Virus record (IMG/VR): IMGVR_UViG_3300020204_000176
Span: 1-36,497 of that record
Direction: 5' to 3' (one strand)
Source: a virus
DNA length: 36,497 nt
Both the position numbers and the translations under genes were made by a program. Under the pieces are notes generated by a model that had not been told where the DNA came from, made no database searches, and worked only from the letters and a program-made list of their open reading frames with translations. This document shows positions 16,991 to 36,497 of this stretch, piece after piece. Within the stretch, counting starts at the first letter, position 1. Every line of letters starts with the position of its first letter.

Positions 16991-17539
16991 CTACCTATCT
17001 TCATTGGGTGGGCGCTCAATGAAAGATGACGGCACCTCACCCTCTGTGGGAACTTCTACGGGAACCCACGCCCGCGAATATTCATACTTTTGTAAATTTT
17101 TTTTCTTAATTAGGTCTCCCGTGAGCAGTAGTTCCAATTCGTCATCAGACATGGCAAGAATTGCCGCCAAATCGCGCTCCCCGTATTTAGCGGAAACAAT
17201 TATTTTGTTTACAACCGAACTTAGGCGCACGGGATGCACGAATCCACGCGCACGGTTTAAGCGAACATGTAAAACCATGGCATCAATCTCGTCCACATCA
17301 TGAAAAACGACAGGGATTAAGTCACCATGCTTTTTACGAAACCGCTCATCCGTGCACACGACATTCCATCGCTCCGAGCCGTCAATAATTGAATTGTCAG
17401 AAACCCGAACAACAATTGGTTGCAGCCATCCCGATTCGGTCAACGATGTTTTCAATAACAACAAGTCGGGTCGCAAAATGCTTGTGGCTCGCCATTCGGG
17501 TGGACGAACTGCCGTTTTGGGCAACATTTGAATTTTCAT
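16991..17539 (-). CDS. ParB-like nuclease-domain protein, IbrB-like
   Basis: This 182-residue protein overlaps the PAPS-reductase-like gene by 4 bases (ATGA) and has a strong AAGGAGATGA site. The N-terminal 60 residues carry the ParB/Srx fold signature: LQPIVVR (39-45) and IIDGSERWNV (51-60), equivalent to the ParB P-I-x-V-R and D-G-x-R-R boxes, with S-E-R replacing the common E-R-R. A basic helix region follows (HVRLNRARGFVHPVRLS). It lacks the CTP-dependent partition protein's long C-terminal dimer domain, so it is not a plasmid ParB. PAPS-reductase plus ParB-like pairs are known as IbrA/IbrB and recur in phages. Exact activity is unknown. Confidence 0.75.
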   Translation of the reverse strand: MKIQMLPKTAVRPPEWRATSILRPDLLLLKTSLTESGWLQPIVVRVSDNSIIDGSERWNVVCTDERFRKKHGDLIPVVFHDVDEIDAMVLHVRLNRARGFVHPVRLSSVVNKIIVSAKYGERDLAAILAMSDDELELLLTGDLIKKKNLQKYEYSRAWVPVEVPTEGEVPSSFIERPPNEDR

Positions 17540-18672
17540 TGGAAATCATCTCCTTGTTCTAATGCTTTCATCCGCATGGTGTGTGCTCTTGTTTTCGGTC
17601 CTACAGGTGTTGGGGTTGATTGATGGAACTCGTTCAGCAAAAGGGTGCGTATTAGATATTCAAGAGGAAAACCGAACGGGTCTACCGCACGTTTCTTTCT
17701 AAATTTGGATGCAAAAGCCATCGCTTCAATTTTTATTCCTTCTGACAACATGTTGTCATCTATGCATCGTTTGACCCCGTCCCAGTTGTCCGAAGCGTAG
17801 GAAGCAATAAGCGTCTCAATATCAAAATACTCCCAATAGCGACGCTGTGCGTCAATCTGCGGAAAACACCTGACGAGGGCATCGTAAAAATCTGGTTCCG
17901 TCATAATCACATCGCTCATACGCCTAGCAGCGACAGAATGCAAAGGAATACCGACACGAGAATTGCTTCCGCTAACAAGGGCATAGTCATAGTATTTGCA
18001 GTACTCTGCGCCGTGCTCAACGGCAACAAACTTCATTACATCGTCAGCCGTCCAATCGTAAATTATTTTTGCAAACTTCAACGGAATGGATTTCGGTAAG
18101 AGAAAAGGCGTGACAATATAATTCTCGTGAAGTTTTTGCACACATGACCTGTAGCGAACCATTGACTCGTTTGCGCGGACACCAGTTATGAATGCAGTCC
18201 GTCCTTTCTTGCCCTGCATCGTGTAGTAATCAACAATCTTTGGTGATGGTTGAGAATGGTCAAAACCAAAGTTTTTACCCGTTATCGCCCACGGCGGAAT
18301 AGAACGCGTAAGACGACCCTCTTCTTCTCTCTGCTTTGACCACAGCAATAAATATTCGCGCCGACCAAGAACCCACACCTCCTGTGAAGACGGCAGGCAA
18401 TACCACTCCATGTCAACCCAGGAATAATTGCGAACCGTATTTACAAATTCAATAACAGATGGGCTCACCATTTCTTCATCGCGAAAAATCACTTTTACGG
18501 GTCCGAGACTCCGTTCCTCGTGAATTTCTTTGGCGAGATACAAAATTGCGGTTGAGTCTTTCCCACCCGAGAACTGCACACAGACGGTATCAAAGGTGTC
18601 GTAAACATGCCGTATTCGTTGTCTCGCGGCATCAACGCAAGAAGTATCCAAAAACAGTCGCCGTCTCGCCAC
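17536..18672 (-). CDS. PAPS-reductase-family protein, IbrA-like
   Basis: This 378-residue protein has the PP-loop nucleotide-binding motif SGGKDST at about 35-41, an acidic F-R-D-E-E element at about 63-67 and the downstream GVRANESMVRYRSC at 164-177, typical of PAPS reductase/ATP pyrophosphatase enzymes. The segment IYDWTADDVMKFV also fits the family (W-x-x-x-D-V/I). No CCxxRK-type sulfite-reductase C-terminal Cys is clear, so classical PAPS reduction is unlikely. Partnering with a ParB-like gene points to IbrA/IbrB-type function, possibly nucleotide or nucleic-acid modification. The start is GTG at 18672; another possible start is the TTG at 18651. The domain is certain, the role is inference. 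Confidence 0.85.
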   Translation of the reverse strand: MARRRLFLDTSCVDAARQRIRHVYDTFDTVCVQFSGGKDSTAILYLAKEIHEERSLGPVKVIFRDEEMVSPSVIEFVNTVRNYSWVDMEWYCLPSSQEVWVLGRREYLLLWSKQREEEGRLTRSIPPWAITGKNFGFDHSQPSPKIVDYYTMQGKKGRTAFITGVRANESMVRYRSCVQKLHENYIVTPFLLPKSIPLKFAKIIYDWTADDVMKFVAVEHGAEYCKYYDYALVSGSNSRVGIPLHSVAARRMSDVIMTEPDFYDALVRCFPQIDAQRRYWEYFDIETLIASYASDNWDGVKRCIDDNMLSEGIKIEAMAFASKFRKKRAVDPFGFPLEYLIRTLLLNEFHQSTPTPVGPKTRAHTMRMKALEQGDDFQ

Positions 18673-22980: not shown

Positions 22981-23154
22981 ATGAACAAGTTCAATTTTCG
23001 CAGATTTCTCACCCGCACAAGTGCAGCCAATTCTCTAATGATTTTATTTTTAGTGGGAACATCGGTGGGTGCGGGAATGATTTTACTACCAGCAGGATTT
23101 ATCGTTGGTGGTATTGCATGTGGTTTGCTCGGCTTTCTGCTTGGGTCTGAATAA
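22981..23154 (+). CDS. 57-residue membrane protein ahead of the portal
   Basis: This short gene reads MNKFNFRRFLTRTSAANS, then LMILFLVGTSVGAGMILLPA and GFIVGGIACGLLGFLLGSE. The N-terminus is basic and two hydrophobic stretches (about 19-36 and 38-55) are rich in Gly, a pattern of a hairpin membrane protein. Its stop overlaps the portal start (TAATG), so it is translated with the portal. AGGGTG lies about 7 bases upstream of ATG 22981. It could be a holin-like or superinfection-exclusion protein, or a membrane anchor for head assembly. No family recognised. Confidence 0.6.
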   Translation: MNKFNFRRFLTRTSAANSLMILFLVGTSVGAGMILLPAGFIVGGIACGLLGFLLGSE

Positions 23155-25379
23155 TGGCGTGGAATAGTCCCTCAAATAAAGGCACTCCCCCCGTAGAGGA
23201 GAAGGCGCTAAGTCCTGGCGCGCCAGTTGTTTATGACATAGGCAAAACGGGAAGACCCTATAAAGACGGTTGGGATATTGAGCGTGCTTACCGCGAGGGT
23301 CATCAAAAGATTACTTGGGTGTTCCGATGCATAGACGCTATTGCGGGTAATCAGGCGCGTCTTCCCATGATGCTCCGTAAGGACAATGACCAACGAGGCG
23401 AGAGAATTAAAACTCGCCGACCGATTCTTGAATTGCTCAACTCAAAATCAAACATCGGAGAAAACTCCTTCATCTTCCGCTACAGGCTGTCAGCGCAACT
23501 CATGATGAGTAGCCGTGGAGTATTTATTGAAAAAGTAAAAGGTCGTGACGGTCGTCTTATCGGTCTGCAACTTCTTCCCCCACAGCACACCGCTCCAATT
23601 CCAGATGTCAAAAATTTTGTTGCAGGTTATGAAGTTGACATGCGCAACGGCTTCAAAGCCACACTCAAACCCGAAGATGTTTGTTGGATTCGCCGCCCGC
23701 ATCCACTTGACCCATATCTTTCCATAACCCCCATGGAATCTGCGGGCATAGCCATTGAACTTGAGAACCTATCCAAGTTATACAACCGCAACTACATGCT
23801 GAATGATGGGCGACCTGGCGGATTGCTCGTCGTTCGTGGCGACATCCAAGAGGACGATAGGGAAGAACTCAAAAACCGTTTTCGCGGAAATCTCACCAAG
23901 GTCGGTGGAACAAGCGTTATCGCATCGCAGGACGGGGTTGATTATGTAGACACATCATCCTCCCCTCGCGACGCTGCGTACACAGAAATGAGAAGAATTC
24001 AGAAAGAAGAAATACTTGCCGCTTTCGGTGTTCCAGAATCCGTAATCGGAAATGCTGCTGGAAGAACCTTTTCTAACGCTGCCGAAGAATTGCGAGTGTT
24101 TTGGATGGAAACAATGACCCCGCACCTCCATACACTTGCACGCGCCCTAGATGAACTTGACGATAAATACTATGTGGATTTTGATACTTCAGATATTCCA
24201 ATTCTGATTATCGCCAAGCAAGAACGAGAGCGCTACCACATGGACGAATTTCAGCAAGGTCTGATTTCGTTAAACGAGTATCGCGAGGCGACAGGAAAGA
24301 AAAAGGTTGAGTCGGAACTTGCCGACTCGTTGCTGTCTAACCCGAATCTTACTCCCATTGCAAACACCGAGAAACCATTCAAGGCTGACCAACAGCAACC
24401 AGTTGACATGGTTGGTGTTGACCAAGGAGCGCCCGCAGGTGGCGGTCTACCTCCGATGGAGGGCGCTGCGGAAATGCCACAACCTGCACCACCGGCACCG
24501 ATTCCTGCGCCCGAACCCGCAGGAGCAGCGACGCAAGGGGCAGCACCCGCAGGAGCGCCAGAAACAGGCGCACTACAGCCCCAACAACAATTAAGCGAAT
24601 GGGAAACCCTTCAGCATGAAATCAACAGAAAATTTGTTGAGGGTGTGGAAACAAAGGCTGACGAAGACACTAATAGGTGGACAGAAATTTTGGACAGGAC
24701 GCTTGAACGTTTGTTTGAGCGTCAGCAGAGGGTTGTGACCGAGAAGGCTTTCGGCAAGAAGGCTTTGAAAGCGTTAGAGAACGGAACGCTTACCGCCGAT
24801 ATGTTTTTTGATACGAAAGTGTGGAATAAACAATTGGCTGACGATGTGAAGCCCGTGATTCTTGCGATTTGTAACGAGGGTAAAGATTATGTTTCGGCTC
24901 GTTCAAACATGCCAGCAGAGGTTGACCAAGAAGAACTTGAGCGTTTGGCTCAGGAACAGATTCAGCGCATGCAACAGGCGAATCAGTCAACATTTGAGGA
25001 AATTGCTGCAGCGGTATTGGTTGCGTTGGCTAGTGGCGGAGATGAAGACAAATCCGCCCTGTTACGAATTGCGCTTGCCGCAATCTTTATCAACTTGTTG
25101 AGAAAACGTCGCCGTGCGATGGCAGAGCATGAAGCACAATCAGCGTTCAACGCAGGTGTCTATGTTTCTGGCAAGTCTGCTGGCGGGTTAACAAAGACTT
25201 GGTTGACGCGCAAAGATGCCAAGGTTCGCGCAGCGCACGCCTTCTTGGAGGGAAAGACTGTAGATTTCGGGGAAGGGTTTGCTGTGAGTGGTTCCATGTT
25301 GCGTTTTCCAGGTGACCCGCTCGCGCCACCATCGCTGACCTACAACTGTAGATGTCGCATCCGATTGAGGTTTGAGTAG
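23154..25379 (+). CDS. Portal protein fused to MuF head-morphogenesis domain
   Basis: This 741-residue protein has an HK97-type portal at about 30-400. Signatures include ITWVFRCIDAIAGN, the PLDPYLSITPMESAG segment, the loop DGRPGGLLVVRGD, and the tail helix SNAAEELRVFWMETMTPHL. A Pro/Ala/Gly/Gln-rich linker spans about 405-480. The C-terminal part ends in the MuF signature: TKTWLTRKDAKVRAAHAFLE at about 684-703, then FRFPGDPLAPPS-like residues (LRFPGDPLAPPSL) and YNCRCRIRLRF. MuF proteins are minor head proteins beside or fused to portals. It overlaps the 57-residue protein's stop. A fused portal-MuF ties one MuF copy to each of 12 portal subunits. Confidence 0.9.
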   Translation: MAWNSPSNKGTPPVEEKALSPGAPVVYDIGKTGRPYKDGWDIERAYREGHQKITWVFRCIDAIAGNQARLPMMLRKDNDQRGERIKTRRPILELLNSKSNIGENSFIFRYRLSAQLMMSSRGVFIEKVKGRDGRLIGLQLLPPQHTAPIPDVKNFVAGYEVDMRNGFKATLKPEDVCWIRRPHPLDPYLSITPMESAGIAIELENLSKLYNRNYMLNDGRPGGLLVVRGDIQEDDREELKNRFRGNLTKVGGTSVIASQDGVDYVDTSSSPRDAAYTEMRRIQKEEILAAFGVPESVIGNAAGRTFSNAAEELRVFWMETMTPHLHTLARALDELDDKYYVDFDTSDIPILIIAKQERERYHMDEFQQGLISLNEYREATGKKKVESELADSLLSNPNLTPIANTEKPFKADQQQPVDMVGVDQGAPAGGGLPPMEGAAEMPQPAPPAPIPAPEPAGAATQGAAPAGAPETGALQPQQQLSEWETLQHEINRKFVEGVETKADEDTNRWTEILDRTLERLFERQQRVVTEKAFGKKALKALENGTLTADMFFDTKVWNKQLADDVKPVILAICNEGKDYVSARSNMPAEVDQEELERLAQEQIQRMQQANQSTFEEIAAAVLVALASGGDEDKSALLRIALAAIFINLLRKRRRAMAEHEAQSAFNAGVYVSGKSAGGLTKTWLTRKDAKVRAAHAFLEGKTVDFGEGFAVSGSMLRFPGDPLAPPSLTYNCRCRIRLRFE

Positions 25380-25394
25380 TTCACACGTAACGAA

Positions 25395-25423
25395 ATGACA
25401 CTTTACTGAAAGTGTTGCATTAT
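25395..25423 (+). promoter_or_regulatory. Candidate promoter with overlapping 7-4-7 inverted repeat
   Basis: In the 75-base gap after the portal gene, ATGACA (25395-25400, one mismatch from TTGACA) and CATTAT (25418-25423) are 17 bases apart; TATAAA at 25421-25426 is another -10 option. ACACTTT / AAAGTGT (25398-25404 and 25409-25415) forms a perfect inverted repeat between them, suited to an operator or a small hairpin. No U-tract follows, so it is not a good terminator. Confidence 0.4.
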
Positions 25424-25454
25424 AAAAGATGTAAATAGTTTAAAGTTGTAGGGT

Positions 25455-28124
25455 ATGTCTGATGTGATGCAAACCGCCGCCCTTGAAATGACCGAATACA
25501 AGGCATCACAAGGTCAAATCAACATTGACGAAGCCCAAGGAATCGTTGAAGCGTTTGTTGCTGGTATCGGGAACAAGGACTCCGTAGGTGACATTATCGT
25601 CACGGGTGCGTTCGCCGAAAGCCTAAAAAGACGTAAACCGAGAGTGGTTTGGGGTCACGACTGGAATTCACCAATCGGAAAAGTCCTTGATATCTACGAG
25701 GTTCCACGCACCGACCAACGCCTGCCAGCAAAGATGCGTAACGCAGGCATCGGCGGATTATATGTTCGCGTGCAATTCAATCTCAAGTCAGAACGAGGAA
25801 GACAGGCGTTCGCCGATGTTTCGTTCTTTGGCGAAGAGCAAGAGTGGTCAATCGGATACAAAACCCTTGACGCCGACTTTGACCCACAGAGAAATGCGAA
25901 CGTTTTAAAGAAAGTTGAACTGTACGAGGTTTCTCCCGTGCTTCATGGAGCAAATCAACTAACAGGGACAATCAGTATTAAGGCAGACGAATCTGTCAAG
26001 GGCGCTTCGGGTAGTCCATGTTGGGATGGTTACAGACAGGTCGGCATGAAACCTGGCAAGAACGGAAAGATGGTGCCGAATTGTGTTCCGATAGGAGAAA
26101 AGGGCGAACAACTAAGAGACCCCAAGGGTGGTCTCACCGCAGCGGGTCGTGCACACTTCAACCGTACCGAAGGTTCAAACCTCAAGCCAGGTGTGAGGGG
26201 TCCTGCTGATACGCCTGAGAAGATGCGTCGTAAGGGTTCTTTCCTGACGCGTTTCTTTACAAACCCGAGTGGTCCGATGAAGGACGAAAAGGGACGCCCG
26301 ACGCGCTTGGCGCTTTCCGCCGCTGCTTGGGGAGAGCCCGTTCCACAGGATAGGGAAGCAGCAGCAAAACTCGCGGCTAAGGGTCGCAGACTTTTGGAGC
26401 GCTACGAGAACTCCAAGAAAAAGAAGAGCGACGCCGTAGATATTGACGAAATATACAAGATTGCCGAGCAGTTCGTAATGTCTGACGAATCCTTTAAGAA
26501 AGAACAAAAGATATTCGTTCTTGAGTCTCTGCAAGAGAAGGGAATCGTCCCAACTTCAGAAAAAGGAATGCGTCCTGAGTTTGAGAACATGATGCGTGCA
26601 CGCATGATGGAACAGTTCAAGAAACAGCGCATCATGGCAATGCTCGCTCAGATGCTTGAAAACCGCGACGACGACGAGGAGGAAAACGAAGAAGAAGACG
26701 ACGGGATAGAAGCAGCAAAACCCGAACTTGGACGTGCGCCCAATCTTCCGCTCGCGCTCGCCAAAAAGTTTGGAGGAGCAATCCGCATTCGTGAGTCCGA
26801 CGCTAACTCCGTAATCTTTGACCACAGAGGACAAAACGGTATGAACACGCTTCGTGTTTCGTATCACTTTGAAGACGGAAAGTTTATGTTTGGAGACCCA
26901 ACGCAAGTAAAACCAAAAGTGGTTTATTTGAACATGAGCGGTGACGAAGTGCCCGGCTCATCCGACGCATCGCGTCGCTACGAAGATAGATATGAAATGG
27001 ATGAACAACCGCAAGTGCCACTTGGTGTCAAACCCAAGTCACCCGAGAAGGTTGACCCGCTCGGCGGTCTAATTCCGCAAGAAGTTATCACGGCAAGAAC
27101 CCGTGGCTACGGTCCGCGTAGGGGCAATCTTGAGCGTCTGCTCCGATATTGGCGTCCAATCATGCGCAAGCCAGGTGGTTTTCGCCGTTGCCGTGTAATT
27201 CTTGCTAACCATCCAGAGTTGTACCCGTTGAACAATATTTGTGCTTGGCTACACCACGAAACAACAGGACTCTGGCCGAATGAAGGGTGTCATCATCCCG
27301 GCATGAAGAATTGTCGCAAGAAATTGAAAGGTGTTGTACGCGGAACGATTTGGAGCGACCGTGAGTGGAATGAGCGTTTGCGGAATCTTGTGAGCCGAGG
27401 AAGAAAAGATGGTCAGTTGCTTGAGGAAGACATTTTAGATATTTTTGGTGACCAAGGCTCGGAAGAATTAAATTTTGAATTGATGGAGGATGTCGCTGAA
27501 AAAATGGCTGTTGGCATGATTGGCGATTTTGAAACGGAAAACCCTGCCGAAGAGGAAAAACAGGCTTACGAGGCTCTGCGTGAATTCATGAATATGGAAC
27601 CCGAATTTGTCTCTTACATGACTGGCGATGACAATTGGATGATGGAGGGCGAAGACGACAACGACGAAACCATTGAAATGCCGATATTGGTGTCGGGTGG
27701 CGGAGGCGGCTGTGGTTGTGGCGGTGCGTGTGGAGGTGGGGGCAAGGAGATGATTGCGGCTCTCGCAGCAGCCCTTTCCGACATGATTAAGAGCGCCGAG
27801 GATGAGATGCAAATCAAGGGTGCACATATCAACGGTGACAATGTTCAGCGTTTGAAAGATGCTTACGGCATTCTCACAACTGTCTTCCAATACGGTGGTT
27901 TGGACGAGAAGCCATATTTGGTAAAAGCCAAAGGCATGAGTGTCTACAACCTTAAATCTGCTATTGACCCCGTTTTGGAGTTCTACGGCATTGACTCTGA
28001 GGCAACAGAACAGGGTGTCAGGTTGTTCGGAATTGACTGTGCACCCGATGATGCCGTAGACGCATTATCTTCTGTGCTCCAAAGATTAGAATCATCAAAA
28101 AATGCGACAGTGTTGCATAGGTAA
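25455..28124 (+). CDS. Prohead protease multidomain fusion
   Basis: This 889-residue protein starts with an HK97-type prohead protease (about 1-178): VEAFVAGIGNKDSVGDIIV, catalytic His68 in VVWGHDWNSPIG, Ser132 in EWSIGYKTL, and VELYEVSPVLHGANQLT. Typical prohead proteases have about 200 residues. Here follow a Cys-bounded stretch (189-210), a DUF6321-like domain (about 220-317; DPKGGLTAAGRAHFNRTEG, GSFLTRFFTNPSGPMKDEKG), a helical acidic segment (330-420), a Cys/His-rich domain (549-625; C579, C596, H600, H601, C612, H613, H614, C620), and a Gly/Cys tract (748-763) with a helical end. The tail may act as a scaffold-like cleavable region or carry extra head functions. The ATG at 25455 lacks an ideal leader; GTG 25464 or ATG 25467 are alternatives. 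Confidence 0.85.
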   Translation: MSDVMQTAALEMTEYKASQGQINIDEAQGIVEAFVAGIGNKDSVGDIIVTGAFAESLKRRKPRVVWGHDWNSPIGKVLDIYEVPRTDQRLPAKMRNAGIGGLYVRVQFNLKSERGRQAFADVSFFGEEQEWSIGYKTLDADFDPQRNANVLKKVELYEVSPVLHGANQLTGTISIKADESVKGASGSPCWDGYRQVGMKPGKNGKMVPNCVPIGEKGEQLRDPKGGLTAAGRAHFNRTEGSNLKPGVRGPADTPEKMRRKGSFLTRFFTNPSGPMKDEKGRPTRLALSAAAWGEPVPQDREAAAKLAAKGRRLLERYENSKKKKSDAVDIDEIYKIAEQFVMSDESFKKEQKIFVLESLQEKGIVPTSEKGMRPEFENMMRARMMEQFKKQRIMAMLAQMLENRDDDEEENEEEDDGIEAAKPELGRAPNLPLALAKKFGGAIRIRESDANSVIFDHRGQNGMNTLRVSYHFEDGKFMFGDPTQVKPKVVYLNMSGDEVPGSSDASRRYEDRYEMDEQPQVPLGVKPKSPEKVDPLGGLIPQEVITARTRGYGPRRGNLERLLRYWRPIMRKPGGFRRCRVILANHPELYPLNNICAWLHHETTGLWPNEGCHHPGMKNCRKKLKGVVRGTIWSDREWNERLRNLVSRGRKDGQLLEEDILDIFGDQGSEELNFELMEDVAEKMAVGMIGDFETENPAEEEKQAYEALREFMNMEPEFVSYMTGDDNWMMEGEDDNDETIEMPILVSGGGGGCGCGGACGGGGKEMIAALAAALSDMIKSAEDEMQIKGAHINGDNVQRLKDAYGILTTVFQYGGLDEKPYLVKAKGMSVYNLKSAIDPVLEFYGIDSEATEQGVRLFGIDCAPDDAVDALSSVLQRLESSKNATVLHR

Positions 28125-29955: not shown

Positions 29956-32900
29956 ATGAATTCGTCTCTTGCTTATACCGCGAATCAGCGAGTAGAGCGC
30001 TACAGAAAATCCGTTGAGTTTGTTGCAGAAGATGTGCTGCTCTACAAGGGATTTCTCGGTCGTTCGTTAAAAGAACGCGAAGGCTTGTCAAGTGTGGGCA
30101 CGAGAGCAGCGCGTGCTGCTGGTGTGATTGTTGATTCTTTGGGCAAGTTGCGATGTCCGCCGGGTACTCCTAATGCTAATCAGTTCACAGATTTGCAAAT
30201 GTCGAACTGTATGGTGCCGGGTTTGGGTGCTGCGAGGCGAGCCGCTCAAAAACTTGCTAATTCAACCCAATCGCTAATAGACAATGCTCAAAAAATGTTG
30301 CGTGGTCCTGACGGTAAAAAACTTAAGGGCAAAGCAAAAGTTGCAGCGCTTGCCTCTTTGGTTGCTTTGGATGTCATGGACTATCTGAACATGGACGGAA
30401 GTGGTTCGTTGTCTGCGTCTACTCTCGCTTTGGCGGAAGTGTTGCGCTACGGTTCGTCACAAGTAGCCGAAGCAGTATTGGACAGACTTGTACGACAGGG
30501 CAAAATTACCGAAACTCAGCGCAAAAATATGCAAGCGATTCTAGACAAAGTTGCAACGACACAAAGATTTGGTGGACTTGCAGAATACATAGTCAGTCGC
30601 ACCGACTTGGCAGTTCGTAAGAGACGAATGAAACCAACTCGTCGCGAGAATATGGTTCCGAATGTCGTTGAATTGGTGGACGACACCGTAGACGCTGCGA
30701 CACAAGCAAAGTGGGATGCGTACGTTGATGGGCTGAATATTCCCAATGCACCCGAACGCGAAAGGGTGGAAGTTAACACCGTTGAAGAGGGGGTTGTCGC
30801 TCTTCTTGAAGGCAAGATTGTTGACATGCCCGATGTTGAGGGTGCTCACATGCTGATGGATGAACTCGGGCACATTATTGCAGATTTGGAGGAAATGCAC
30901 AAGAATGGGGAAATTGATGACGTAACTCTTGAGAACGCTGTTTTTGATTTGTGTCAAATAACCGTGAAGGGAACAAGCGCATTTTGCTTGGGCAACAAGG
31001 GAATACCGCGATACTTGATGCCACAGGCGGAAGGTAAACCAGTAGCGGGTTCAAGGGCTCAAAAAGCATTTGATGCGCAAGTAAAGGTTTTGCAAGATGC
31101 GGTTGATAAAGCAATAGCAGATGGACGTCCGCAAGCCGAAATAGACGAATTGCAAAAGAAATTAGACAAGTTCGTTAAAAAAGGTGAAATTAACGGACAG
31201 AAAGATATGTTGGCATATCTTGCGGAAAGAGGTATCAAGCCGAGAGTCGGGGAGGACGGCAAAGAGGTCGGCGTAGAAATGGTGCCGTCAACAAAACTTA
31301 AGGCAACTCAACGAGACATGCAGGGTCACAAAGTTGTCGGCATGATGCGTGCCAAAAAGAGAGGCGAATACGACCCAGGCAAAGAAGCCGTGTTTGTATC
31401 TAAGGACGGATACATTATTGACGGACATCATCGTGTTGGTGCACAAGCAGGAATGGATTACCAAGACGGGGTACTTGGAAATGACCACCAAATGCCAGTC
31501 ATCGTGTTGGATGCAAACATTTCGGAAATATTGCCTGTGGCGAATGACTGGACGCAAGACTATGGCATACAGAGAAAGACTGTTGCGCAAACGTCTGAGG
31601 GCGGACCAACAGCAGTTGACATTTTGGATTTGGTGAAGCAAAAACGCGCACAAAAAGCACAAGAAGCGCTTGGACAAGTTGACAGCAGAATTCCCGACGT
31701 CGATTTGACTACGCAAGATATCGGCTTGCCCAAAACCGATGCGGATGAGGTTATTAAATCAGTTACACCAAAACTCAAATCACCAAGACATCTTGATGTC
31801 GCCACGACGGTAAGTTCGGACGCACTTTTGCCAAGTGCTCCTGAACAGTCTGTCCGACCCCCAGGGTATGCACAAATAACCGTAGATGCTGAAAAATTTA
31901 ATGCCGAACTCAAAGAAAAAACTAATGCGCTTTTGGACAAACACGGCATAGATAAAAATAAGCCCCCATCCCAACAAATAGATGAACTTGCAGGCAAAAT
32001 GGGCGTGGTTCTGCAAACACCCATTGAAAAACAACTGGATACTGCTGTGACTTGGATGGAAGAACAAGGTATGGCTAAGGCGAACATATTATTGGAAGCA
32101 GACCCAAATCATTCAGCGGAAATTAATGCCTACCGCAAGATAAAAGGTCAAGCAATCATTGACGCAATAAATTCAATGCGAAATGACAAGGGTCAACCGG
32201 GTTGGATGAAGAAAAATGCGGAAGGAAGAGAAACCGTAAAACAGGCGATTGCGCAAGGATATCTAGAAGCACTCGTCGGTATGGACGAAATTTTTAAAGG
32301 CGCCCCCAATCTAAAGGGAGGCGTCATGCTTGAACTCCACGGTGTTGATGGACCAGCCTCCATGAATGACGCGGCTGGTTATGCACAGGTCGGTATGCGC
32401 GGTGACGGAAAAGTAATGGCAAAAGTTTCGCTAGTACCGGACTCGATGATTTTTGACCAAACGAAACAAAATGTACTGCCCAAAGGTCAGGGGATGACTC
32501 AGACTTTGCGTTTCATGGGGGCGGACGACCATCAGGTTGGACTCGCCATTCATGAGGGTGCACACGCTGAACATTTTATGCACCAATTTAAAACGCTCGG
32601 TATTGAGATGGGCGAAAACGCACCATCCATCAGTGAACAAGTAAGAAATAGGGGAGATAAACTTTCTGATTCATACATGGGCGTAATGTTCTCTAAGCGA
32701 TATGACTTCCCTAAAGATGCGACATGGGATGAAGTTGAGGAAGAAATCAAGAGCAAACGGAAACGCCCCTCTTTTAGAAATTTTGTTGACGGACCGGAAC
32801 ACAACCTAAATCAATATCTGTTTGATGTTGCGACGGCAGAGATGCTGAAAAGTAGGGGTGCTGGTGGCGCACCAGATTTGTCTTCTTCTGACCTAGAAAA

Positions 32901-33564
32901 GTTGGCTTGGGGCACTGCGCCCAAATCAAAATATGCAACCGAACTTATTGAAGCGGTAGAGAACTATGAGCGTGACCTGATGTTTCCAAATGTGAACCCG
33001 TTTGTACCACCGGGCAAACAGTTCAATACGATGAGTCGCGAAGAGGCTGCCGCGGTAAGACAGCAGGCTGTAGATGCGGTACAACTAAAACTTCCAGAAG
33101 GCTATGAACTGTTTGATGAAGATGGAAAACCCGTTACAAAACAACAGTTGGTTGATGCAGTCAAACAAGCCATGGGCGGAAAGAAAATTGCACAAGTAAG
33201 CCAAGAATACAAACCGATTTTGGATGCATACTTGGGTATCGACTCTCAGAAGATAACCACCAACGGGGTGGACAATCAGGAAGTGATGAGCGTGCTAGGT
33301 GTCGCGTCACAGTACGGGCAGACGAATGTGATGGAGGCTGTAGCAGAGTCACGAGTTTTGGATGTGTTTACAAGACAATTCGGTAGTTTCCGAGCGTTGG
33401 ATGATTCACCCAAAAAAGCGAGAGAGATGTTGGATAGACTTTTCTCTGAATCGAGCGTTCCACCCATGGGCGCCCCACCGTCCGCGGCTGAATATCAGGA
33501 AAACATTCAAAAAATCATCGCGGCAATACCGAGATTACGCAGAGTTAAAGCAGGAGCCCAATGA
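29956..33564 (+). CDS. Large polyvalent-type virion protein with ParB-like and zincin-like motifs
   Basis: This 1202-residue protein starts behind AAAAAGGAGAGACG. Residues 66-85 hold the shared R-C-P...T-D...C motif, followed by GLGAARRAAQKLANS. Around residues 475-520 is a ParB/Srx-like module: VFVSKDGYIIDGHHRVGAQA, then MPVIVLDANISEIL. Residues 866-876 hold HEGAHAEHFMH, a zinc-peptidase HExxH with a third His at the metzincin distance, though Gly at the usual place is His. The rest is long helices and linkers. Large phage proteins mixing ParB-like and metallopeptidase domains are known as polyvalent proteins and are thought to be delivered with the DNA. Packaging in this virion is inferred from its head-gene location. 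Confidence 0.75.
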   Translation: MNSSLAYTANQRVERYRKSVEFVAEDVLLYKGFLGRSLKEREGLSSVGTRAARAAGVIVDSLGKLRCPPGTPNANQFTDLQMSNCMVPGLGAARRAAQKLANSTQSLIDNAQKMLRGPDGKKLKGKAKVAALASLVALDVMDYLNMDGSGSLSASTLALAEVLRYGSSQVAEAVLDRLVRQGKITETQRKNMQAILDKVATTQRFGGLAEYIVSRTDLAVRKRRMKPTRRENMVPNVVELVDDTVDAATQAKWDAYVDGLNIPNAPERERVEVNTVEEGVVALLEGKIVDMPDVEGAHMLMDELGHIIADLEEMHKNGEIDDVTLENAVFDLCQITVKGTSAFCLGNKGIPRYLMPQAEGKPVAGSRAQKAFDAQVKVLQDAVDKAIADGRPQAEIDELQKKLDKFVKKGEINGQKDMLAYLAERGIKPRVGEDGKEVGVEMVPSTKLKATQRDMQGHKVVGMMRAKKRGEYDPGKEAVFVSKDGYIIDGHHRVGAQAGMDYQDGVLGNDHQMPVIVLDANISEILPVANDWTQDYGIQRKTVAQTSEGGPTAVDILDLVKQKRAQKAQEALGQVDSRIPDVDLTTQDIGLPKTDADEVIKSVTPKLKSPRHLDVATTVSSDALLPSAPEQSVRPPGYAQITVDAEKFNAELKEKTNALLDKHGIDKNKPPSQQIDELAGKMGVVLQTPIEKQLDTAVTWMEEQGMAKANILLEADPNHSAEINAYRKIKGQAIIDAINSMRNDKGQPGWMKKNAEGRETVKQAIAQGYLEALVGMDEIFKGAPNLKGGVMLELHGVDGPASMNDAAGYAQVGMRGDGKVMAKVSLVPDSMIFDQTKQNVLPKGQGMTQTLRFMGADDHQVGLAIHEGAHAEHFMHQFKTLGIEMGENAPSISEQVRNRGDKLSDSYMGVMFSKRYDFPKDATWDEVEEEIKSKRKRPSFRNFVDGPEHNLNQYLFDVATAEMLKSRGAGGAPDLSSSDLEKLAWGTAPKSKYATELIEAVENYERDLMFPNVNPFVPPGKQFNTMSREEAAAVRQQAVDAVQLKLPEGYELFDEDGKPVTKQQLVDAVKQAMGGKKIAQVSQEYKPILDAYLGIDSQKITTNGVDNQEVMSVLGVASQYGQTNVMEAVAESRVLDVFTRQFGSFRALDDSPKKAREMLDRLFSESSVPPMGAPPSAAEYQENIQKIIAAIPRLRRVKAGAQ

Positions 33565-33785
33565 GCAACACAAGTGGAATTGAGCAGATTCACTGGACTG
33601 GTTTCGAATGGATTATTGTTTCCCCTGATGCCAAGGAGCAGTGGTATAAAATTATCTTGTATAAGGAAAAATTGTTACCTCGCGAATGGCAACTTCTACA
33701 AAACCTCAGACCGAAGGTTATGGTTCCGCCGTTGGTGATTACAGACAACAACATCAACGAATTGCGAAAAACTTGGAATAAGTAG
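33561..33785 (+). CDS. Small hypothetical protein
   Basis: This 74-residue protein begins MSNTSGIEQIHWTGFEWIIV; its ATG overlaps the previous stop (ATGA), supporting coupled expression. It is rich in aromatic residues early (two Trp, one Phe) and basic in the middle (WYKIILYKEKLLPREWQLLQ), ending in INELRKTWNK. No Cys and no membrane segment. I recognise no family; it may be an assembly partner of the large protein just upstream. Confidence 0.5.
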   Translation: MSNTSGIEQIHWTGFEWIIVSPDAKEQWYKIILYKEKLLPREWQLLQNLRPKVMVPPLVITDNNINELRKTWNK

Positions 33786-33849
33786 ACAATCTACTGACTT
33801 ATTGAAACCTAGCAATAAGGTACAATCGGATAGCCAGCCTCATGTGGCT
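33781..33849 (+). promoter_or_regulatory. Intergenic block with three inverted repeats and a possible -10 box
   Basis: In the 83 bases between genes are AGTAGA-CAA-TCTACT (33781-33795, including the upstream stop codon), CTTATTG-N8-CAATAAG (33798-33819) and AGCCA-N8-TGGCT (33832-33849). TACAAT (33821-33826), one mismatch from TATAAT, sits between the second and third repeats; the only -35-like sequence is TTATTG 16 bases upstream, which is poor. None is followed by a U-tract. It may be an operator-promoter region or a messenger-processing block for the next gene. Confidence 0.35.
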
Positions 33850-33868
33850 CACCACGGCAAGGGCATAG

Positions 33869-35221
33869 ATGCATAACGGGCTCAATACTTCAATCGCAAC
33901 TCTCATCAGGAAACGACCTCATGCGCCGCGTGGGGCGAAGAGTGTCCGCCGCACGATAATCCCCCTAGAGAAACAGTTGACTGTACGTTTTGATGAGACC
34001 GCAGAGCAACACGACATCACAACATCTCCATTGCTGTACATGCGCACAGAAGGTCGCTTATCTGAAAAAAATATTGCGAACTACAAGACCGCAATGTTCC
34101 TGAGAAAGAAGCAGGCAAGACTTTCTGCACCGATTGATGTGTATCACTATGAACAAAAAGTCGGTCTCGTCAGGGCTCGTTCTGGTCTCGGCAGAGCCGC
34201 ACAGGCTGTGGGCAGTATATTGACGCCCGGCAATTTGAGTGCTATTCGTAGTCCGATTCGTTCCGCAATCTGGCGTGGTTTGACACCAGGTGGTGGTGGA
34301 GGAGGTCGGCGAAGAGGTGGGGAACGCGGATACCGATGCCCTGCGGGTTTTGAATTCGGTGGACGATTTACCGACAACGCATTCTCCACTTGTGGCGCAC
34401 AATTGTTTGGAATTCCAGGTCCGCTTGCTTTGTTGGCTCGTGCGGTTCGTGGTGCTATTAACGCCCCCGAAGCGCGTATTACGAGCCTTTCGGAAGTAAT
34501 TGAAGGAAACGCTTCACCCGACCGAGCCGTACAGATTCAACGCATGGCACAAATCCCACGAAACCCTGGTCCAAACAAACCCCGTTTTGCCCGTTCGGTA
34601 TCTGAATCAATCACCGTACTTCAAGGCGCTCCCGCTGGTGAGGGACGCATGATTCGGCGAGATGGAATTATTTTGCGACCGCTAGTTCCTTCTTCTGTGT
34701 TGCGTGAGTTCGGCGGAAATCCCGACATGTTGGATGGTGCGATGATTCGCGCCGTGCAAATCCCGCGAGAAATTGCTGCCGACGATGTTGCCCTGCTTGC
34801 TGGTGCCTCAATGCAAAGAATCTCATTTGTCGCACCAAACGGTGTAGTGATGACTATTGAGCGCCCCCGCCCGTTGACTGTTGGTGAACGACGAAAGTTT
34901 GGCAGACAGTTGAATCGCGCAATCGGAGAAACAGACCAGTATGACCCAGGTGCAAGCATCCGACAGTTTGCCGAGGGAACAAACGGCGCGTTCAAATACA
35001 CAGAAACATACGGCAAAATCCCTGACCCATTATCATTCGTTGAGATAACTGGCGAAGATGGAGTTAAGCGTCGCGTCCGTAAGTGGGTGTACGAAACATT
35101 TATCAAAAAGAGCCGAAGATTGGGCTCAACGACACGACAGCAGGCTCAGCGTCGCGAAGAAATCGCACGCGAAGGAAGAGAAGCCGTTGAACGGCTTTCG
35201 GGGGCAGATAAACCTCTATGA
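33869..35221 (+). CDS. Head-region protein with the shared Cys motif
   Basis: This 450-residue protein starts at ATG 33869 behind AAGGGC. Its N-terminal 135 residues are basic (RKRPHAPRGAKSVRRT). A Gly-run plus arginines (GGGGGGRRRGGERG, about 141-154) leads to the shared motif YRCPAGFEFGGRFTDNAF, then STC (155-175), followed by GPLALLARAVRGAINAPEAR. The centre and C-terminal half (about 190-420) contain beta/alpha segments (RDGIILRPLVPSSVLREFGG; PNGVVMTIERPRPLTVGERR). The C-terminus is helical and basic (STTRQQAQRREEIAREGREA). The stop overlaps the next start (ATGA). No family recognised; probable virion component by location and motif. Confidence 0.6.
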   Translation: MHNGLNTSIATLIRKRPHAPRGAKSVRRTIIPLEKQLTVRFDETAEQHDITTSPLLYMRTEGRLSEKNIANYKTAMFLRKKQARLSAPIDVYHYEQKVGLVRARSGLGRAAQAVGSILTPGNLSAIRSPIRSAIWRGLTPGGGGGGRRRGGERGYRCPAGFEFGGRFTDNAFSTCGAQLFGIPGPLALLARAVRGAINAPEARITSLSEVIEGNASPDRAVQIQRMAQIPRNPGPNKPRFARSVSESITVLQGAPAGEGRMIRRDGIILRPLVPSSVLREFGGNPDMLDGAMIRAVQIPREIAADDVALLAGASMQRISFVAPNGVVMTIERPRPLTVGERRKFGRQLNRAIGETDQYDPGASIRQFAEGTNGAFKYTETYGKIPDPLSFVEITGEDGVKRRVRKWVYETFIKKSRRLGSTTRQQAQRREEIAREGREAVERLSGADKPL

Positions 35222-36497
35222 AGAAAGTCTTTTTTGTTCGCCACAAACGCGACAATGCGCCATATCTTTTGGTGACAGTAAATCCGGGTGGTACAGATTT
35301 TCAACCACTTTCTGATGAGGCAGATGATGTCGCTGATGTGTTTGACTCCGTTTATAGGAATCGTCCAATCAATAAGCAAGAATTAGACGCTGCTCTTGAC
35401 GACGATTTCACGATTGAGGGTCCGATTAACCCGACGCGAGGCAACTTGAATCTGCTACAGGACTTTCTATCGGACACAAATCAGCCCTTGTCGCCGCGCA
35501 AAAGATATCCGTCAGCAAAATCGTTTGATATTTCTTCAGTTCCCCTCGGATTCTCCGACAAAGACGGCAAAGTCAATCTCACCGAATACAAGGCACGGAA
35601 CTTCATCTACGAACAAACAAAGTCAACATTCAATTATGAGGTCAAGCGAGTTCGCGCTCTTTGGGACCCGGGTTTGTCAATCCCTGGCACGGGAAGGCGC
35701 GGAGGATGGCGATGCCCTGTTGGGACTCGTTACGGCGGTCAAATCACCGACAGATTCGGCAGAAACTGCGGATGGGGAGTTGCTCGTCGTATCGCGAATG
35801 CAATTACCAACATTGGCGAACGGATGGAAAACCTTGACGACCGACGCAGGGGTCGCCGTGTGGAGCGTCGCAACCGAAGAATGTTGGAGCGTCTAGGTCG
35901 CGCAGAAGGCGCAGGTCGCGCTGAGCGAGGTTTGCGTGGTATCGCTGAGGTTCTTGATGGTGGAGAAGCAACACCGGCTCCCGCGCCCGAGCGTCCGCGT
36001 GGGCGTGGAGTGCAGGCGCGTCGCAGAGCCCGTAATACGACTGAGGCTTTGGCTGATGCACGCGATAGGGGTTTGCGTGATTCGGAGCGTCGCCGTGTCC
36101 GCAGAGAACTAGAGAAGCCAGGTGCGGCTCGCACAGGAGAGGTTGACGAGCGAACGGGTGACGACCTTGATGATGCCGAGAAAGCAATGCTTAGCAAAAT
36201 CAAACCTGTTCTAGATGGTTATAATTACAATGGCTTTTACGCCTTCTTTGACGATAAAGAAAACACTTTAGACAAACTTGTTCAAAAAGGATATTTTGAA
36301 AAACCCATAAAAGGTCCCTTTGACGGCATGCGCAACGGCGAGCGGTACATTCTTAGAACAGATGAAGTGTGGTACCCACTTACCAACAAAGGAAGACGAT
36401 ATTTCGGAGTCACCGATAGCCGTTTGATGGACCCCGAAGAACAAGTTGACAAACCAAAGAAACCACAAGCGCCACGCAAGCGTCCCCGCAATGCACG
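35218..36497 (+). CDS. Head-region protein with the shared Cys motif, 3' end cut by the window edge
   Basis: Starting at ATG 35218 (ATGA overlap with the upstream stop), the frame is open to the right edge for about 426 codons. It opens MKKVFFVRHKRDNAPYLLVT. Residues 157-163 (GTGRRGG) lead into the shared motif WRCPVGTRYGGQITDRFG, then RNC (164-184), followed by GWGVARRIANAITNIGERM. Residues about 190-320 are extremely Arg-rich with Glu and Ala (RRRGRRVERRNRRMLERLGR), likely long basic helices or disordered DNA-binding stretches. A folded domain of about 60 residues follows (KIKPVLDGYNYNGFYAFFDD; NGERYILRTDEVWYPLTNKG). No family recognised; a nucleic-acid-binding virion protein is the inferred role. 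Confidence 0.6.
   Translation, partial: MKKVFFVRHKRDNAPYLLVTVNPGGTDFQPLSDEADDVADVFDSVYRNRPINKQELDAALDDDFTIEGPINPTRGNLNLLQDFLSDTNQPLSPRKRYPSAKSFDISSVPLGFSDKDGKVNLTEYKARNFIYEQTKSTFNYEVKRVRALWDPGLSIPGTGRRGGWRCPVGTRYGGQITDRFGRNCGWGVARRIANAITNIGERMENLDDRRRGRRVERRNRRMLERLGRAEGAGRAERGLRGIAEVLDGGEATPAPAPERPRGRGVQARRRARNTTEALADARDRGLRDSERRRVRRELEKPGAARTGEVDERTGDDLDDAEKAMLSKIKPVLDGYNYNGFYAFFDDKENTLDKLVQKGYFEKPIKGPFDGMRNGERYILRTDEVWYPLTNKGRRYFGVTDSRLMDPEEQVDKPKKPQAPRKRPRNA

Follow-up and report, generated by a model that had tools for sequence, protein, structure and literature searches.

Three adjacent genes in the head cluster of an uncultivated virus encode proteins that carry the same 20-residue, Cys-bounded loop. 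This module is almost certainly real and common to its carriers, and on balance we favor the view that these residues form the core of a tag, located N-terminally, by which virion cargo is docked in or targeted to the head. The stretch of DNA analyzed, here called the window, is a complete IMG/VR virus record, linear and 36,497 bases in length, which is probably a fragment of a larger genome. The loop is borne by a clade of HK97-type, contractile-tailed phages that have not been cultivated.

The Cys-bounded loop in the window and beyond

With all six frames of the window read, the pattern R-C-P-x-G-x6-[FI]-T-D-x5-C has three matches only, and it has none in 100 dinucleotide shuffles of the window. 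The three copies, which the original prediction had described as identically spaced, are all in frame and in place on the plus strand: RCPPGTPNANQFTDLQMSNC in protein A (30151-30210, residues 66-85 of 1202), RCPAGFEFGGRFTDNAFSTC in protein B (34334-34393, residues 156-175 of 450) and RCPVGTRYGGQITDRFGRNC in protein C (35710-35769, residues 165-184 of a 3'-open ORF of 426 amino acids). In two of them, B and C, a Gly/Arg run does precede the loop. The Ala/Arg-rich stretch behind the loop also matches its earlier description. The claim that the remaining parts of the three proteins are dissimilar holds for A versus B and A versus C, but not for B versus C. The latter pair is related by BLASTP (E = 1e-6, residues 44-209 / 99-208) and has in common a short element upstream of the loop, [YF]-K-[AT]-x-x-F, represented by NIANYKTAMF in B (34070-34099, plus strand) and NLTEYKARNF in C (35575-35604, plus strand).

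A scan of 2.9 million viral contigs of IMG/VR with the motif written as a 60-base degenerate pattern matched at least 120 stretches, as against one match for a control pattern with one N fewer, which provides an estimate of chance. Among the matches listed there are 161 in-frame occurrences of the motif, with many contigs having two to four copies. A profile of the motif run against 50 whole records recovered one to five copies in every one of them (50/50), always as one cluster on one strand, with weak stray matches only elsewhere in these records. Chance or low-complexity convergence, which might be invoked as the motif is short and its context Gly/Arg-rich, can be set aside as having a negligible probability: the shuffles, the excess of database matches over the control, the clustering in the 50 records and the invariant columns described below together rule it out.

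Single-linkage clustering of the carrier proteins merged all of them into one group because they are mosaic, whereas clustering on their non-motif parts yielded essentially three gene families, A, B and C. No unrelated, non-virion carriers were present among the clustered proteins. The profile search had been proposed as a way of asking whether matches fall in head clusters, and they do, both in the 50 records and in 15 relatives whose gene order was mapped; a preponderance of matches in unrelated, non-virion proteins was looked for and not seen. Some phages have B and C joined as one polypeptide with two loops. The motif lies 49-650 residues from the N terminus, mostly at 49-270; it is invariant in 40 B homologues, and its Cys columns together with the R, P and T columns are invariant in A2 and A4. 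A tblastn search of cultured phages with three tag consensus sequences returned nothing credible, and a scan of genome contigs gave 15 matches, of which six are genuine and the others due to chance. The genuine ones are MAG contigs assigned to Phycisphaerae, Verrucomicrobiales and Gammaproteobacteria. Literature searches found no published description of the Cys-loop motif.

The head cluster and the three carrier proteins

Across the 15 mapped relatives the typical order is terminase (on the opposite strand), followed by portal-MuF, prohead protease, a P0007-like protein, A, a 210-residue protein, B, 0-3 copies of C and the major capsid protein (MCP); a few relatives are without A or C, or have a cluster that extends past the sequence examined. 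In the window, the head cluster starts with a portal-MuF fusion (23154..25379, plus strand), followed by a prohead protease of the S78 type (25455..28124, plus strand; Peptidase_S78 match, 3.2e-12), which also contains DUF6321, a domain for which our literature searches found no paper that names it, and further Cys/His-rich segments. Next is the acidic Cys-rich protein P0007 (28143..29741, plus strand), kept between the protease and A in relatives. The MCP that follows C in relatives is of the HK97 type, and its absence from the window is explained by the window ending inside C. The MCP of L152 matches 3qpr with 1.1e-60, and an HK97-fold MCP with a delta domain, alongside an S78 protease, defines the head as HK97-type. 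When relatives were entered via the portal rather than the motif, the motif was present in 25 of the 29 contigs that extend 8.5 kb or more downstream; among the other four, two have it further downstream, as found by whole-record search, and two are just 14 and 17 kb long.

This region has several further features. The window protease has another Cys-bounded loop, CWDGYRQVGMKPGKNGKMVPNC (26019-26084), and loops of the form CxG[AI][HR]...W[ML]PC are repeated in proteins directly before the MCP (L152; G043 25162-26295). A conserved Cys/His-rich segment, GPRRGNLExLLRYWRPIM...CAWLHHETTGxWPNEGxHH, lies inside the protease in the window (~27160-27370, protease residues 570-640) and elsewhere makes up a gene of its own or the N-terminal part of B (L160, L054); it is a wandering domain that possibly binds zinc. 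Between the tail and terminase genes of the window is a phosphoadenosine phosphosulphate reductase gene (17536-18672, minus strand), also conserved in relatives.

Protein A (29956..33564, plus strand, 1202 amino acids) combines the tag with ParB-like and HExxH metallopeptidase-like cargo. The ParB/sulfiredoxin-like signature DGHHR occupies residues 489-493 (31420..31434, plus strand), within a segment (residues 433-545) that matches phrog_2859 with 1.2e-15. The designation metallopeptidase-like is prompted just by the HExxH motif, HEGAH at residues 866-870 (32551..32565, plus strand), which is present in 11 of 13 A homologues; a PDB sequence search with A gave no match. Protein B (33869..35221, plus strand, 450 amino acids) couples the tag to a C-terminal domain (~residues 230-450, 34556-35218) for which AlphaFold2 gives pLDDT above 90 in most blocks. 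A fold search of the PDB with the B model retrieved no match at E <= 0.001, and the modeled domain might possibly represent a new fold. B, a conserved protein of ~450-700 amino acids, resembles a structural protein more closely than it does variable cargo. Protein C (35218..36495, plus strand, 426 amino acids present, 3'-open) consists of an N-terminal domain, the tag, an Arg-rich stretch and cargo. Neither B nor C of the window (P0005, P0006) has a Pfam, NCBIfam or PHROG match. The motif region itself is predicted by AlphaFold2 with pLDDT of 55-70, the tag of A being of low confidence.

The composition of the segments next to the loop brings up the idea that the tag ties proteins to packaged DNA, with the Arg-rich stretch behind the loop binding DNA and thereby bringing in the cargo. 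C proteins indeed have long Arg-rich runs directly behind the loop, and B and C have Gly/Arg runs ahead of it. However, no Arg-rich run of this kind is present in the A families, and the conserved loop has hardly any basic character, leaving this an improbable account.

A constant core, exchangeable cargo and candidate processing sites

When 26 A and C proteins are aligned over 5885 columns, invariance is confined to R66, C67, P68, T78 and C85 (numbering of the window A protein). Profile-profile comparisons among A, B and C aligned 32-52 columns around the core with E-values of 3e-7, 4e-11 and 3e-10, and comparison of their 60-residue flanks with the core removed detected nothing. The presence of a conserved core in three families with unrelated flanks suggests a common partner. 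Downstream of the tag, parts are exchanged freely. The two C genes of L099 have tag units that are 97% identical and unrelated downstream cargo; similarly, the window A protein is 73-75% identical to L091, L085, L083 and L012 in the tag unit and has no similarity to them in the cargo. More generally, in pairs of C proteins with tags that are 85-100% identical the alignable downstream part is on average just 23%. Cargo domains recognized in relatives include PI3/4-kinase-like, HipA-like kinase, NUDIX and exonuclease (RNase_T) domains. A Cys loop placed near the start of giant proteins with a changing remainder therefore resembles a loading tag.

Candidate sites for the prohead protease lie close to the loop. 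The PDB chains of HK97 gp5 have 385 residues at full length and 282 in the mature form, so that the known cut falls between K103 and S104, within K-S-L-G. In 9/10 MCPs of the clade, K[ST][IL]G is found where the delta domain ends, matching the position of the HK97 cut. The A families have a comparable K-x-L-G ~33 residues before the loop: K[STAG][LI]G occurs 30-38 residues ahead of it in 20 of 43 non-redundant proteins versus 0.3% of control windows, and a looser pattern in 39 of the 43 versus 6.6%. In the window A protein the candidate is K-G-F-L-G (residues 31-35, 30046..30060, plus strand), followed 35 residues later by the RC of the loop; going by this resemblance, A may be cleaved there, and with the cut upstream of it the loop would remain near the mature N terminus. 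B and C show no enrichment of the MCP-derived pattern, and their Lys sites take another form. Weaker candidates in the window are E-Q-K-V-G of B (K97; 34157..34165, plus strand; family form EVK[AV]GL) and Y-E-V-K-R-V of C (K143; 35644..35652, plus strand). K159 of L099, at the C candidate site, is invariant in 21 C proteins. One might instead regard the motif as a site that the phage's own protease recognizes or cleaves, given that it adjoins the protease gene and is near these candidate sites. Yet the peptides that look like protease sites in these genomes differ and are genome-specific, while the motif is constant across genomes and has two invariant Cys, and we regard this as even less probable than the DNA-binding role.

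The carriers are also depleted in cysteine, by roughly tenfold. Outside the motif pair they contain 0.74 Cys per 1000 residues versus 7.5 in other ORFs, with the value being lower in each of 16 genomes; for comparison, the MCP has 0.9 and the tape measure protein 0.3. In B (450 amino acids) and C (426 amino acids present) the motif pair are the only two Cys. We infer that the depletion is an adaptation to virion life and that the two retained Cys together form a disulphide or a metal site. Overall, it is quite probable that the carriers of the Cys loop are virion-internal. The suggestion of the original prediction that the loop is a modular tag on head-cluster proteins has thus found support in the conserved core, the swapped cargo and the location between protease and MCP, as well as in the polyvalent-type cargo, the cysteine depletion and the MCP-like protease sites.

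If the loop is such a tag, A, B and C would be made as precursors beside the portal and the prohead protease and docked inside the prohead by their N-terminal region, of which the Cys loop forms the end. The S78 protease may trim a propeptide at a Lys ~33 residues before the loop in A, and possibly in B and C too. The loop, closed by a disulphide or a metal between its two Cys, would be kept near the mature N terminus, and the cargo enzymes behind it would exit the head with the DNA.

Alternative loops, giant proteins and known head-loading systems

Two giants at the C position, in G003 and G037, have the C N-terminal domain (E 4.6e-13, 8.4e-11) with D-x-D-x-DG-x-V-x-EG replacing the Cys loop. 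This EF-hand-like DxDxDGxVxEGT loop comes after a Gly/Arg-rich stretch and no protein has both loops; instances are L166/L164/L165 (G037 49745, 55190, 59428), L170 (G003 41978) and L149 (G013 86675). Some giant head proteins of relatives have this EF-hand-like loop and some have neither module, so entry does not depend on the Cys loop alone. Such replacement at an equivalent position in the N-terminal domain of C is what interchangeable folds would produce, and it favors a different interpretation, in which the loop serves as a structural staple (a disulphide or metal knuckle) within an N-terminal domain. That assembly domain would make up an internal core or scaffold with cargo attached to it, and the loop would not itself be the recognized signal. 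The conservation of B over its full length, with cargo that hardly varies, and the fact that the loop pair are often the sole Cys of the protein also agree with a staple. The core is, however, far better conserved than its surroundings and common to three families with unrelated flanks, and we consider the staple rather unlikely, though the most serious competitor of the targeting tag.

The giants of relatives have in addition repeated linker pentapeptides: GMRSR 25 times in G003 (L169-L170, L177), ISGRM 10 times in G005 (L146-L147), PSGSM 10 times in G022 (L158-L159) and RLSSG 10 times in G004 (L144-L145, L188), compared with at most three occurrences of any 5-mer in shuffled controls. These peptides are genome-specific and nearly absent from the ordinary proteins of the same genome; no repeated linker peptides were found in the window. 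We suspect that they are polyprotein cleavage sites. Two of the single ORFs are very large for phage genes, with 5254 residues (L188, G004 73952-89714) and 5441 residues (L159+L180, G022 57156-73479). It is conceivable, and we propose it only tentatively, that an interchangeable N-terminal loop, Cys or EF-hand-like, loads a changing set of effector polyproteins of up to 5000 residues into the head, and that the phage's own protease then cuts them at the genome-specific linkers to release separate enzymes for injection. If true, such loop-addressed, protease-cut effector polyproteins would be a virus counterpart of polymorphic toxin delivery.

Very few phages, T4 and P1 among them, have provided known signals for loading proteins into the head, and the sequences of these signals show little conservation. 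Such targeting signals, the T4 capsid targeting sequence (CTS) and that of P1 DarB, are not known to need a Cys loop, a point against the tag reading. MuF-domain fusions join a virion domain to exchangeable effectors; the window portal itself ends in a MuF domain, but A, B and C have none, their carrier being the Cys-loop tag.

According to PMC5694885, the T4 CTS is a propeptide of 10-20 residues which is removed by cleavage. Like that signal, borne by the internal proteins and Alt, the Cys loop is an N-terminal element common to several differing, unrelated head proteins of one phage, which are in the path of the prohead protease; unlike it, the loop is downstream of the candidate cut and would stay on the mature protein. 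In P1 DarB the N-terminal 30 residues are enough to package a reporter (PMC9024508). That signal too sits on a very large antirestriction/polyvalent protein, but no Cys loop has been described for it, and the present module is common to three gene families and swapped among cargoes. Ejection proteins of the giant phages SPN3US and phiKZ have N-terminal propeptides of more than 100 residues cut by the prohead protease, according to the available text of PMC5694885, which reports no repeated Cys loop. They are comparable in the long N-terminal regions on head-internal proteins and differ in their S80-type protease, which cuts after Glu, as opposed to S78 and a K-x-L-G type site. The closest parallel in terms of cargo is seen in the polyvalent proteins (Iyer et al. 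2017), which are large, multidomain, equipped with HExxH and ParB-like domains, encoded among head genes and thought to be injected (PMC5512222). Likewise, the window A protein has two effector-type domains, ParB-like and HExxH, in one large polypeptide, and the motif proteins are encoded among late/virion genes. The available portion of PMC5512222 describes no Cys-loop tag or repeated linker peptides, and the word 'cysteine' is absent from its main text. Judged by domain signatures, the cargo uses the same repertoire as polyvalent proteins and may be similarly injected.

A tag that can be recognized and exchanged would make it possible to list the injected proteins of an uncultured phage just from sequence data. 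It would bring many new effectors into view and provide a means of loading HK97-type heads. The linker peptides, specific to each genome, suggest that virion polyproteins can be encoded by giant phage genes.
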